Of a stretch of DNA of 33,893 nucleotides, positions 27,119-33,220 are shown piece after piece. This DNA is from Sporomusaceae bacterium. Its GTDB lineage: Bacteria > Bacillota > Negativicutes > UBA1444. A program made the translations under genes and the position numbers. Position 1 is the stretch's first letter. Every line of letters begins with the position of its first letter. The notes under the pieces are model-generated. The model made no database searches. It saw only the letters and a list, made by a program, of their open reading frames with translations, and was not told the origin of the DNA. The stretch lies in NCBI GenBank assembly GCA_018434355.1, contig JAHDPL010000009.1, positions 1-33,893 on the forward strand, read 5' to 3'.

Positions 27119-27550
27119 GTGATCGAGTACACGCAAATCGAGCTGCGCATCATGGCGATATTCTCCGCCGTCGGTGCGGCTTTTTCCTTTCTGGTGGGCG
27201 GCGTCGACAAACTGATCTCCGCGCTGCTGGTGTTCGTGGCGTTGGACTATGTGACCGGCCTCCTCGCCGCCTGGAAGACTTCGACGCTGGACAGCAAAAA
27301 GGGGTTTGAAGGAATCAAGCGCAAGGTGGTCATGCTGCTGATCGTGATCATGGCCCACTGGATCGACGCCTGCCTGTTCGGGGTCAGCACCTTCCGCTCC
27401 ATGGTGATCTTTGCGTATCTGGGCAACGAGGGGCTCAGCATTCTGGAGAACCTGGACCGCATGGGCTATGGCGAGTACATTCCTTCCTTCATCCGCGACA
27501 AGCTGGCGCAGCTTCGCGCCGAAAAGGCGGCATTGCGAAACGGTCAATGA
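27119..27550 (+). CDS. Holin, toxin-secretion/phage-lysis family (TcdE/Cp-1-like)
   Basis: This 143-aa holin has an N-terminal amphipathic helix, hydrophobic segments around residues 8-28, 31-51, 70-90 and 93-108, and the family hallmark ALDYVTGLLAAW followed by SKKGFEGIKRKV. It would open the inner membrane at the end of infection to release the amidase encoded next. The GTG start at 27119 follows GGGAGGA. It opens the lysis cassette. Confidence 0.92.
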   Translation: MIEYTQIELRIMAIFSAVGAAFSFLVGGVDKLISALLVFVALDYVTGLLAAWKTSTLDSKKGFEGIKRKVVMLLIVIMAHWIDACLFGVSTFRSMVIFAYLGNEGLSILENLDRMGYGEYIPSFIRDKLAQLRAEKAALRNGQ

Positions 27551-27640: not shown

Positions 27641-28231
27641 GTGAAAATTGTCATTGATCCCGGCCACGCGGGCCGAAACGTGGATCCGGGGGCGGTGAAC
27701 CCGGGGACCGGCTTGCAGGAAGCCGATGTTGCGCTGGCGGTGTCGCGATTCCTGGAGGCCGAACTGACGCGGGCGGGCCACGAGGTGAAACTCACCCGCA
27801 TGGAGTGGGAGCAGCCGGAAACGGATGATCTGGCATACCGGACCTTGCTTGCGAACGACTGGGGGGCCGATCTTTTTGTTTCCCTCCATTGCAACAGCGC
27901 GGCAAGCCCGAGTGCGAAAGGCTATGAGGTTTGGACGTCGCCGGGGGATACGGAGGGCGACATTTTGGCAACCTGTATCTATGCGCAAATCGCCATGGAT
28001 TTTCCGGATAGGGCGGGAAGGGCTGACTATTCGGACGGCGACCCGGACAAGGAATCGCGATTTTATGTGCTGGTTCACACCGAGGCTCCGGCCTGCCTGG
28101 TGGAAATGGCGTTCATTTCGAACGATGAGGAAGCGGCCTTGCTGGCTGACGCCCGGTGGCAGAGCCGGCAGGCGGGAGCGATCGCCCGGGGAATCGCGGA
28201 GTATGCCAATTTAAAAGGAGGGAAGCAATGA
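27641..28231 (+). CDS. N-acetylmuramoyl-L-alanine amidase (Amidase_3 endolysin)
   Basis: This 196-aa zinc amidase cleaves the bond between muramic acid and the peptide stem. Zinc ligands and the catalytic acid are visible: IDPGHAG (first His), GLQEADV (Glu), SLHCNS (second His) and LVEMAFISN (catalytic Glu). It consists of the catalytic domain only, without a cell-wall-binding domain or signal peptide, so release depends on the holin. The GTG at 27641 is preferred because GAAGGAGGG lies 6-7 nt upstream; the longer frame would begin in AT-rich spacer. Its stop TGA (28229-28231) overlaps the first of two overlapping genes downstream. Confidence 0.93.
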   Translation: MKIVIDPGHAGRNVDPGAVNPGTGLQEADVALAVSRFLEAELTRAGHEVKLTRMEWEQPETDDLAYRTLLANDWGADLFVSLHCNSAASPSAKGYEVWTSPGDTEGDILATCIYAQIAMDFPDRAGRADYSDGDPDKESRFYVLVHTEAPACLVEMAFISNDEEAALLADARWQSRQAGAIARGIAEYANLKGGKQ

Positions 28232-28602
28232 ATGCGAAAAGCGGTATCTTGCTTGCTATTGCTGCTGTTTTGCTTGTTGCCGTCGGTATCTTCGGCTTCC
28301 GCTTATTCCGTGACGGAAGCCCAGCTGACCGAACTGGAGAGCATCTTCAACGAATTGAGGACGGTCAACGAGACCTTGCTGTTAGAGTCGAATCAATCCG
28401 CCAGGGACTTGATCGAAGCGCGCGAACAGTTGAAGCGATTGCGGGACGAGTTGACGAAGTTGAAAGAACAGTTGCAGGGGCTCAAAGCCGAATCGAGTCA
28501 GGCGCAGTCCGCCTTGGCGAAAGCCAACGAAGAATTGAGAATGGCCAGCGAATCCTACAAGAAATCCGCCAGCGAGGCCAAGCAAAAGATAAAAAGCCTT
28601 GA
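28228..28602 (+). CDS. Membrane-anchored coiled-coil protein, candidate i-spanin-like (Rz-like); overlaps next gene
   Basis: This 124-aa product has one N-terminal transmembrane segment (GILLAIAAVLLVAVGIFGF, about residues 6-24) followed by a long charged heptad-repeat helix (RIEDGQRDL to RRIENGQRIL). This is a type II membrane layout like Rz inner-membrane spanins. The ATG overlaps the amidase stop. AGGAGGG at 28216-28222 serves this start (5 nt) and also the second ATG at 28232 (9 nt), which opens another frame over the same DNA. Codons here end in T or A more often than in the main phage genes, so a shadow frame must be considered. It is the better spanin candidate of the two. Confidence 0.6.
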   Translation: MNAKSGILLAIAAVLLVAVGIFGFRLFRDGSPADRTGEHLQRIEDGQRDLAVRVESIRQGLDRSARTVEAIAGRVDEVERTVAGAQSRIESGAVRLGESQRRIENGQRILQEIRQRGQAKDKKP

Positions 28603-28657
28603 GTGGCAGCGAAATGTGCTGGTCGTAATCGCCGGCTTTTTGGCGGTGCGGAGATAG
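28232..28657 (+). CDS. Secreted coiled-coil protein with C-terminal hydrophobic end; overlaps previous gene
   Basis: This 141-aa product is in the +1 frame relative to the gene at 28228, sharing 371 nt. It has a clear signal peptide (residues 1-24, ending SSASA before Y25), a long heptad helix (EAQLTELESIFNEL through KSLEW) and a short hydrophobic end (VLVVIAGFLAV, residues 129-139). No good lipobox is seen; C14 is preceded by LLF. Signal plus helix plus C-terminal hydrophobic segment recalls o-spanin or unimolecular-spanin layouts. Codon endings match the main phage genes, so this is probably the ancestral frame. The two proteins may form an envelope-spanning lysis complex. Confidence 0.7.
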   Translation: MRKAVSCLLLLLFCLLPSVSSASAYSVTEAQLTELESIFNELRTVNETLLLESNQSARDLIEAREQLKRLRDELTKLKEQLQGLKAESSQAQSALAKANEELRMASESYKKSASEAKQKIKSLEWQRNVLVVIAGFLAVRR

Positions 28658-30648: not shown

Positions 30649-31950
30649 ATGAGGGTAAGGATCATTGAGCCGGTTAAACCCCGGCAAGAAAAACGCAAAC
30701 GAGTCTGCGCCTATGCCAGGGTATCTTCCGGTAGCGAGGCGCAAGGAGAGTCGCTGGAAAACCAGACCACCTACTACCAAGACCTGATCGAATCCAATCC
30801 AGAGTATGAGTTTGCGGGCGTGTTTGCGGATCAGGGCATCAGCGGTACCAAGGAAGCTCGGCCAGAGTTCCAGAAGATGCTGGAACTGGCAAGAAAAGGA
30901 CACATCGACTTGATTCTGACGAAGTCCATCTCCCGGTTTGCCAGAAACACGACGATTGTGCTGGAACTGGTGCGGGAACTGAAAAGGCTGGGCGTCGAGG
31001 TAGTGTTTGAGAAAGAGCAGATATCCAGCCTGAGCGGGGACGGTGAGCTGATGCTGACCGTCCTCTCTTCTTTTGCTCAAGCAGAAAGCAAAAACGTCAG
31101 CGACAATCAGAAGTGGCGCTACCGACGAAAATTCCAAAACGGCGAATTGGCGATCAACGCGACAAGATTCCTCGGTTATGACAAAAACAAACAAGGCGAA
31201 TTGGTGATCAATCCGGCGCAGGCCGAAGTGGTCAAACGGATTTTTGAGGCTGCTCTGGTCGGCCAGGGCAGCTTTGTTATCGCCAGGCAATTGAACGAAG
31301 AAGGCGTGCCAACCGTAGCCGGCGGCAAGTGGCATTCCAGCACGGTCCTCGGCATCCTGAAGAACGAGAAATATCGGGGAGACGCCAAATTGCAAAAGAC
31401 CTACCGCAAGGATCATCTTTGCAAAAAGAAATGCCGGAATCATGGTGAAGTAGAAAGCTTCTACATTGAGAACAACCATCCGCCCATCGTCAGCGATGAT
31501 GTGTGGGAGGAAGCGCAGCGTCAGATCGCGCTTCGCGGAACAGCTAAAGGGAACGTGACGGGAAAAAATGCGATATACAAGAACCGCTACCCATTGACCG
31601 GGATGCTGATCTGCGGCAAGTGCGGTTCGCCGCTTCGCCGCCGGACTTGGAACAGCAACCACACCTGCAAAAAGATCGTCTGGCAATGCAGCAACTATGT
31701 GAAGAACGGCAAAAAAGCCTGCCCCGGCATATCGGTTGACGATGATGCCGTGAGCAGGCTAAATATACAAGAGAAAACCGTGGTCGAGGAGGTACTGCGA
31801 CATGGCGAAAAACATTACCGTTATACCCGCCAGACCGAGCCGAACCAGCTTGGCGGAAGACCTGCAGCCGCAGAAAAAAAGAATCGCTGCGTATTGCCGG
31901 GTATCCACCGATCAGGAAGAACAGTTGTCCAGCTTCGAAGCCCAGGTTAG
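30649..31950 (+). CDS. Large serine recombinase 1
   Basis: This 433-aa serine recombinase has a resolvase domain with catalytic Ser26 (YARVSS), the arginine motif SISRFARNT and the Recombinase domain (FLGYDKNKQGELVINPAQAEVVKRIFEAAL). A zinc ribbon follows (CGKCGSPL with WQCSNYVKNGKKACPG). The last about 49 residues are unlike the family core and lie over the start of recombinase 2, read in another frame. These enzymes integrate and excise the phage at att sites; two in tandem often act together in Firmicutes elements. AGAAAGGAC precedes the ATG. Confidence 0.93.
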   Translation: MRVRIIEPVKPRQEKRKRVCAYARVSSGSEAQGESLENQTTYYQDLIESNPEYEFAGVFADQGISGTKEARPEFQKMLELARKGHIDLILTKSISRFARNTTIVLELVRELKRLGVEVVFEKEQISSLSGDGELMLTVLSSFAQAESKNVSDNQKWRYRRKFQNGELAINATRFLGYDKNKQGELVINPAQAEVVKRIFEAALVGQGSFVIARQLNEEGVPTVAGGKWHSSTVLGILKNEKYRGDAKLQKTYRKDHLCKKKCRNHGEVESFYIENNHPPIVSDDVWEEAQRQIALRGTAKGNVTGKNAIYKNRYPLTGMLICGKCGSPLRRRTWNSNHTCKKIVWQCSNYVKNGKKACPGISVDDDAVSRLNIQEKTVVEEVLRHGEKHYRYTRQTEPNQLGGRPAAAEKKNRCVLPGIHRSGRTVVQLRSPG

Positions 31951-33220
31951 CTACTACACAAATTTCATCGAACGAAATCCGGACTTTGAATGCGCCGGCA
32001 TTTACGCCGATGAAGGGATCAGCGGCACCAACACCAAAAAGCGCGAACAGTTCAACCGGATGATCGAAGATTGCAAAGAAGGCAAGATTGACGGGATCAT
32101 TACGAAATCTATCTCGCGGTTTGCCAGAAATACCTTGGACTGCTTGAACTATGTCCGTCAACTCAAAGATCTGGGCATTGGCGTGACATTCGAGAAGGAG
32201 AATATTTTCACCCTCGACAGCAAGGGAGAGGTGCTTTTATCCATTTTGAGCTCGCTGGCGCAAGACGAATCAAGGTCGATCTCGGAGAACAGTACGTGGG
32301 GAATCCGTCGCCGCTTTGAGCAGGGCCGGCTTTTCATCAACACCACCAAGTTTTTAGGCTATGACAAAGACAAAAACGGCAATCTGGTGATCAATAAAAA
32401 GCAGGCGGAAATCGTGCAAAGGATTTACCGCGAGTTTCTGGACGGCAAAGGGGCCAACCTGATCGCGCGGGAACTGGAGAGAGACCTGGTGCCGAACTGG
32501 CATGGCAGGGCCAAGTGGTACGAAAGCAGCATCCGGAATATGCTGACGAACGAGAAATATATGGGCGACGCGCTTTTGCAGAAAACCTACACGGTGGATT
32601 TTTTGAGCAAAAAGCGGGCCGACAATACCGGTCAGGTGCCGCAGTATTATGTGGAAGACAGCCATCCGGCGATCATTGATAAGGAAATGTGGGAAGCGGC
32701 GCAGCTGGAGATGGAGCGCAGGAAGGCATACGTTCTGCAGCACGGCATCCAAATGTTTGAGTACGCCTCTTTGAAAAACCCGTTTGCCGGCAGGGTCGTC
32801 TGCGGTTTGTGCGGCCGGGCCTTTGGCAGGCGAATCTGGAATTCCACGGATGACCGGCTGCGACGGGTGGTGTGGCAGTGCAGCGCGAAGTATGAAGTGA
32901 AGGGAAGGAAGGGCTGCGATAATAAACATATTGACGATGGGGTGCTGTATCAGGGCTTTGTGGATGTGTTTAACGCATTGGTCGAGAACAAGGAGTACTT
33001 CATGGAAAAGTGGCGTGAGCGGCTGAAGAGCGGCAATGCGCTGGAACGATACAAGGCGAGGCAGTTTATCGGCATTATAACTGACGCGGGGCGAATTAAC
33101 GAGTTTGATATTGACCTGTATTGTGCCTTCGTCGAGAAGACAACGGTTATGGAGCGCCGAAAAATGATTGTCAGTTTGCTGGACGGAACCGAAGTGGAGT
33201 GTGATGCGACGAGTTTCTAG
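31802..33220 (+). CDS. Large serine recombinase 2
   Basis: This 472-aa serine recombinase has catalytic Ser35 (YCRVSTDQ), SISRFARNT, a Recombinase domain (FLGYDKDKNGNLVINKKQAEIVQRIYREFL), a zinc ribbon (CGLCGRAF with WQCSAKYEVKGRKGC) and a C-terminal coiled-coil part. It shares general layout with recombinase 1 but is clearly divergent. Its start lies 149 nt inside the upstream gene. It may be the integrase proper, with its neighbour as partner or directionality factor, or the two may form a heteromeric integrase. It is the last phage gene before a terminator. Confidence 0.93.
   Translation: MAKNITVIPARPSRTSLAEDLQPQKKRIAAYCRVSTDQEEQLSSFEAQVSYYTNFIERNPDFECAGIYADEGISGTNTKKREQFNRMIEDCKEGKIDGIITKSISRFARNTLDCLNYVRQLKDLGIGVTFEKENIFTLDSKGEVLLSILSSLAQDESRSISENSTWGIRRRFEQGRLFINTTKFLGYDKDKNGNLVINKKQAEIVQRIYREFLDGKGANLIARELERDLVPNWHGRAKWYESSIRNMLTNEKYMGDALLQKTYTVDFLSKKRADNTGQVPQYYVEDSHPAIIDKEMWEAAQLEMERRKAYVLQHGIQMFEYASLKNPFAGRVVCGLCGRAFGRRIWNSTDDRLRRVVWQCSAKYEVKGRKGCDNKHIDDGVLYQGFVDVFNALVENKEYFMEKWRERLKSGNALERYKARQFIGIITDAGRINEFDIDLYCAFVEKTTVMERRKMIVSLLDGTEVECDATSF

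Follow-up and report, generated by a model that had tools for sequence, protein, structure and literature searches.

Two almost completely overlapping membrane-protein genes in Negativicutes lysis cassettes are a candidate module for outer-membrane disruption

Phages of hosts with an outer membrane usually require a spanin (PMC6139136), and the literature searched gives no answer on how phages breach the outer membrane of diderm Firmicutes. This question is raised by a 33,893-nt stretch of DNA from a Sporomusaceae bacterium (the window), in which two reading frames for putative envelope proteins lie almost entirely on top of each other behind a holin and an endolysin gene. Are both frames genes, and could their products act on the outer membrane?

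The holin and endolysin genes, the Shine-Dalgarno sequence and both frames with their segments are located on the forward strand. Pfam searches and the sequence place the pair in a lysis cassette, with holin and endolysin directly 5' of it. The holin belongs to PF05105 (Phage_holin_4_1; 27119-27550, Pfam E 1.7e-35), and the endolysin is an N-acetylmuramoyl-L-alanine amidase of the Amidase_3 type (27641-28231, Pfam E 1.3e-40). A single Shine-Dalgarno sequence, AGGAGGG (28216-28222), is common to both subsequent starts. Based on both-frame conservation, AF2 models and weak PHROG matches, frame A (28228-28602) is predicted to encode an i-spanin-like type II (N-in) membrane protein of 124 aa. Frame B (28232-28657), located in the +1 frame of A, is predicted from both-frame conservation and AF2 to encode an exported coiled-coil protein of 141 aa with a C-terminal hydrophobic tail. 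The ATG codons of A (28228) and B (28232) are 4 nt apart, and 371 nt are shared (28232-28602). The amidase stop codon TGA (28229-28231) partly coincides with the ATG of A and immediately precedes that of B. The initial annotation of this DNA had described the same arrangement, i.e. one AGGAGGG serving two ATGs and a near-complete overlap within 28228-28657 directly after a holin and an amidase, and its coordinates match ours exactly. One Shine-Dalgarno sequence followed by two close starts was found in most homologues. In about 10 loci A apparently starts at ATT, a rare start codon. An ATTG start overlap (ATT of A, TTG of B) behind one Shine-Dalgarno sequence was observed for example in loci L127, L128 and L139; some loci of this type have no other A start nearby, and the start of A is uncertain there. 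Two large serine recombinases are encoded by overlapping ORFs (30649-31950 and 31802-33220) at the window's right end.

The genome from which the window originates contains three more copies of the pair, with B identities of 80, 76 and 32%. Across the Negativicutes the pair was found in 63 whole-genome loci with B in the +1 frame relative to A, and the frame expected for A (that of B minus one) is open in 63 of 63. Among 200 Negativicutes genomes B was matched in 53 and A in 35, largely at the same places. With an E-value threshold of 1e-10, the B profile gave matches in 78 of the 380 genomes of the class, and 42 of the 102 genera were positive. Both frames were present in all 15 viral and genome contigs checked; the pattern search of contigs used a subset of closer sequences, as the broad alignment was too diverse. 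A total of 11 IMG/VR loci also contain the pair, as do named genomes, e.g. that of Propionispora sp. 2/2-37. Outside the Negativicutes, a 398-genome sample of the phylum yielded no convincing pair with an A partner, only coiled-coil matches. These were mostly long coiled-coil proteins without a +1 partner; two repeat-like hits with a nominal +1 match were discounted. The proteins of the pair had no match among 50,697 records of cultured phages, of which 243 were matched by the amidase control, and a search of plasmids with one query protein also gave no match. Assignment to a named family was attempted with Pfam, NCBIfam and PHROG, which returned coiled-coil-type matches only.

The coding capacity of both frames was assessed by a recoding test. 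At each locus the synonymous codons of one protein were shuffled, with protein and codon usage kept, and the other frame was scored with a profile from which relatives more than 50% identical had been excluded (100 shuffles per locus, 59 loci). At 59 of 59 loci the real A outscored every one of the 100 recodings that keep B, with a mean of 87 versus 37 bits, and the real B exceeded all A-preserving recodings in 58 of 59 loci (89 versus 29 bits). Only 6% and 12% of the recodings left the other frame open. Substitutions between close pairs were also analyzed. Codon position 3 receives 65% of the substitutions in the endolysin and 68% in the part of B that is not shared with A, whereas in the overlap B3 accounts for 45% and B2, equivalent to A3, for 31%. 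The single-coding pattern is back in the tail of B, beyond the stop of A. Relative to doubly synonymous changes, a small class of 33 changes, the rates were 0.30 for changes nonsynonymous in A only and 0.20 for those nonsynonymous in B only, the counts in these classes being non-independent. The conditional omega (NN/SN) was 0.58 for B and weak for A, at 0.89. Protein searches with A and with B land on the same loci.

The heptad patterns were compared with the same type of recoding. Heptad periodicity of A was 0.096 in the real sequences, 0.068 after recoding with B kept and 0.024 after shuffling of residues; the corresponding values for B were 0.075, 0.051 (A kept) and 0.025. The initial annotation had cautioned that leucine codons of one frame automatically give hydrophobic residues in the other, so that a heptad pattern can be a shadow. 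This caution was justified for most of the raw heptad signal, but both frames exceed the shadow when compared with recodings and shuffles. In B, the distance from L32 to R127 is 81, 88, 95 or 102 for 59 of the 65 sequences. Since these steps are whole heptads and the codons are shared, the indels keep the phase in both proteins. Leucines of B are encoded by TTR codons in 65% of cases versus 36% in endolysins (p 2e-26), a choice by which the matching heptad positions of A become hydrophobic. The heptad phases of A and B agree to 0.07 residue; they are in register because the codons are shared. A compositional shadow of a single true gene would account for about 30-37 of the 87-89 profile bits and for most of the heptad power, but it explains neither the recoding results and the position-specific substitutions nor the leucine codon choice, the heptad-preserving indels and the double openness throughout the class. 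The single-gene reading was therefore rejected, and its remaining probability is negligible. Comparison of the sequences shows that both frames are real genes kept by selection across the Negativicutes. Constraint per frame among homologues, a comparison that the initial annotation had proposed, exceeds the shadow in both frames, and the outcomes it had named as counter-evidence (stop codons or loss of the heptad pattern in one frame, purifying selection confined to a single frame) did not occur.

The transmembrane segment of A is a hydrophobic run at residues 6-24 (28243-28299), which lies over the signal peptide of B; across loci the segment has a median of 20 hydrophobic residues. Single-chain AF2 modelling predicted helices at residues 3-28 and 36-121 (pLDDT 74). 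With a single N-terminal transmembrane segment and a putative periplasmic domain, frame A has the features of an i-spanin. Members of A show weak, scattered and partly compositional matches to several Rz-like spanin PHROGs, as well as a weak match to phrog_18860, whose function is unknown. One branch of A (e.g. L015, L016, L019, L020 and L026) contains a single conserved cysteine near the C-terminus in the motif I/L-x-[DE]-C-Q-x-I, which recalls the disulfides of spanins.

Inspection of the B sequence revealed a signal peptide at residues 1-24 (28232-28303) of the signal peptidase I type, with SSASA preceding and Y following the predicted cleavage site, and no lipobox. A coiled coil at residues 29-126 (28316-28609) was assigned by AF2 and heptad analysis, and the single-chain AF2 model consists of one helix at residues 29-140 (pLDDT 86). 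The hydrophobic tail R-N-VLVVIAGFLAV-RR (28610-28654) is positioned past the stop of A and is the only single-coding part of B. This also applies to the homologues, as the stop of A is usually located 40-85 nt upstream of that of B; their tails comprise 11-15 hydrophobic residues, and 55 of 59 B sequences end in K or R. These architectures, in which A joins a heptad helix to a type II membrane anchor and B consists of a signal peptide, a long heptad helix and a hydrophobic C-terminal end, are those proposed in the initial annotation. A terminator-like hairpin with a T run (28618-28643; 0.0 expected from shuffles) is located inside the single-coding tail of B. Four loci (L171-L174, in genomes G072, G027, G044 and G085) harbor frames of 50-60 aa that correspond only to the C-terminal third of B with its tail and have no intact A; these short remnants are probably prophage debris.

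Of the 21 loci tested, 17 have a recognised endolysin as the upstream gene, and at least five unrelated endolysin families occur at this position (Amidase_3, Amidase_2, GH25, VgrG3-C-like and phrog_894). As the endolysin family varies while the pair persists beside it, the pair is linked to the lysis function. This bears on the possibility that the two proteins form an envelope module outside lysis, acting for example in superinfection exclusion or in remodelling of the OmpM tether. Such a module would be compatible with the lack of enzymatic domains in both proteins, and OmpM is known to tether the outer membrane of these hosts (PMC5491611). However, retention of the pair immediately 3' of the endolysin in the lysis operon despite changing endolysin families renders a non-lysis role quite improbable. 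Alternatively, the pair might act as an accessory to the holin or as an antiholin, comparable to XhlA of the Bacillus phage PBSX, with the tail of B anchored in the inner membrane and the pair tuning the release by holin and endolysin without a role at the outer membrane. The adjoining holin, the short hydrophobic C-terminus of B and its weak matches to the 'hemolysin' PHROGs 937 and 1193 (E 0.0084 and 0.0022) are consistent with this function, whereas the signal peptide of B, the occurrence with different endolysin types and the confinement of the pair to diderm Negativicutes, with none seen in the other Firmicutes sampled, argue against it. Pfam XhlA was not found among the listed hits of B. 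An accessory function of this kind is considered unlikely.

The host genome encodes LpxC and Omp85, which indicates an LPS outer membrane. The suspicion voiced in the initial annotation that the host is a diderm Firmicute was thus borne out, with relatives named as Propionispora and Sporomusaceae. Neither LolA nor Rz (PF03245) was detected in the host or in its relatives (0 of 200 each). Lipobox features, which the initial annotation had also suggested examining, are not conserved in either product: in a scan of homologues, the strict motif occurred in 4 of 71 B sequences, at inconsistent places, and in 4 of 61 A sequences. Neither A nor B thus has a conserved lipobox of the outer-membrane lipoprotein type by which o-spanins are recognised. 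The flanks of 63 loci (approximately 1.8 kb on each side) contained nine sense and one antisense lipoprotein-like ORFs but no consistent one. A hidden lipoprotein partner within these flanks was therefore rejected. Four of the ORFs are the same ORF of 39-40 aa in closely related loci. In L015, L016, L019 and L020, a conserved frame of 39-40 aa with the lipobox-like sequence FIAGC is located 0.8-0.9 kb upstream of B.

It has been reported that Negativicutes are devoid of LolA and LolB (PMC5007114). No acylated outer-membrane lipoproteins were found in Veillonella parvula, a result given as not conclusive (PMC5491611), and diderm Terrabacteria are said in a review to be without outer-membrane lipoproteins (PMC11784454). 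Negativicutes hosts thus apparently cannot deliver lipoproteins to this membrane. A lipid anchor in the outer membrane is common to the o-spanins and u-spanins known to date (PMC6139136). A lipid-anchored spanin would fail in hosts unable to deliver outer-membrane lipoproteins, and a pair without lipobox fits such hosts. A canonical two-component lipoprotein spanin of the Rz/Rz1 kind would agree with the i-spanin architecture of A, the position in the lysis cassette and the +1 frame of B, which is also the frame of Rz1 within Rz (PMC6139136). It is nevertheless highly improbable due to the unconserved lipobox, the undetected LolA and the absence of the Rz family in the hosts. In addition, about 70% of embedded spanins have an o-spanin start at 0.4-0.5 of the i-spanin length (PMC6139136), whereas B starts together with A.

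From gene order, architecture and host biology we infer a spanin-like function. The pair probably constitutes a two-protein module for outer-membrane disruption, which would resemble a two-component spanin but operate without a lipoprotein. The N-terminal segment of A would anchor the protein in the inner membrane, from which a helix of approximately 90 residues would extend into the periplasm. B would be exported via its cleavable signal peptide, carry a helix about equal in length to that of A and insert its short hydrophobic tail into a membrane, most likely the inner leaflet of the outer membrane, where the tail would substitute for the lipid that anchors an o-spanin. B could instead be a type I inner-membrane protein, in which case nothing would reside in the outer membrane. 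For an outer-membrane disruption module, the helices of A and B are expected to pair as coiled coils; after opening of the wall by holin and endolysin, A and B would draw the membranes together and the outer membrane would break. A more specific proposal, for which the chances appear evenly balanced, is that B represents the first lipid-free o-spanin, anchored in the outer membrane by a C-terminal helix, double-coded with its inner-membrane partner behind a single ribosome-binding site, and evolved or kept in hosts without Lol.

The pair, which is carried by prophages of Negativicutes, is a concrete and widespread candidate for the breach of the diderm Firmicute outer membrane. It is in addition a strongly supported instance of two membrane proteins whose almost complete double coding has long persisted. 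Such pairs would be overlooked by gene callers that avoid overlaps and by lipobox filters. Known spanin surveys define o-spanins by their lipobox; the present pair is spanin-like by position, architecture and expected need. A survey from 2025 filtered o-spanins by lipobox and found spanins absent from phages of Gram-positive bacteria, Bacillota included (PMC12596118). No description of such a pair was found in the literature on Negativicutes or Veillonella spanins, which was covered in part.

Comparison with known lysis systems reveals both shared and distinct features. In XhlA of PBSX, a coiled coil is likewise followed by a C-terminal hydrophobic segment, and its gene is also located near holin and amidase. 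XhlA is not known to possess a signal peptide or an overlapping partner, and its hosts are monoderm; B differs in its signal peptide, its overlapping partner A and its diderm hosts, and the signal peptide sets it apart from the XhlA family. Like B, the unimolecular spanin gp11 of T1 has an N-terminus that is exported and a membrane segment at its C-terminus. Unlike gp11, which is an outer-membrane lipoprotein, B combines a short tail with the lack of a lipobox and with a second protein; of the lipobox and C-terminal TMD of unimolecular spanins it has only the latter, as its tail. The sequence similarity of A and B to known spanin families is too low for homology to be claimed. The pair falls outside the Rz/Rz1 class, as the defining lipobox feature was tested for and is missing. 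Of the unrecognised spanin system suggested by the initial annotation, the position in the lysis cassette, the overlap and the selection on both frames have been retained, but a canonical system has not, since canonical Rz is absent from the 200 relatives, no lipobox is conserved and B possesses a plain cleavable signal peptide and a hydrophobic tail. In contrast to Rz/Rz1 of lambda and LysB/LysC of P2, the partner without lipobox ends in a hydrophobic tail, and both proteins start at one ribosome-binding site with nearly total overlap. In common with these systems, the pair lies in a lysis cassette and consists of a type II coiled-coil protein and an exported partner in the +1 frame, and it resembles the 'overlapped' class of spanins in that B runs past the stop of A.
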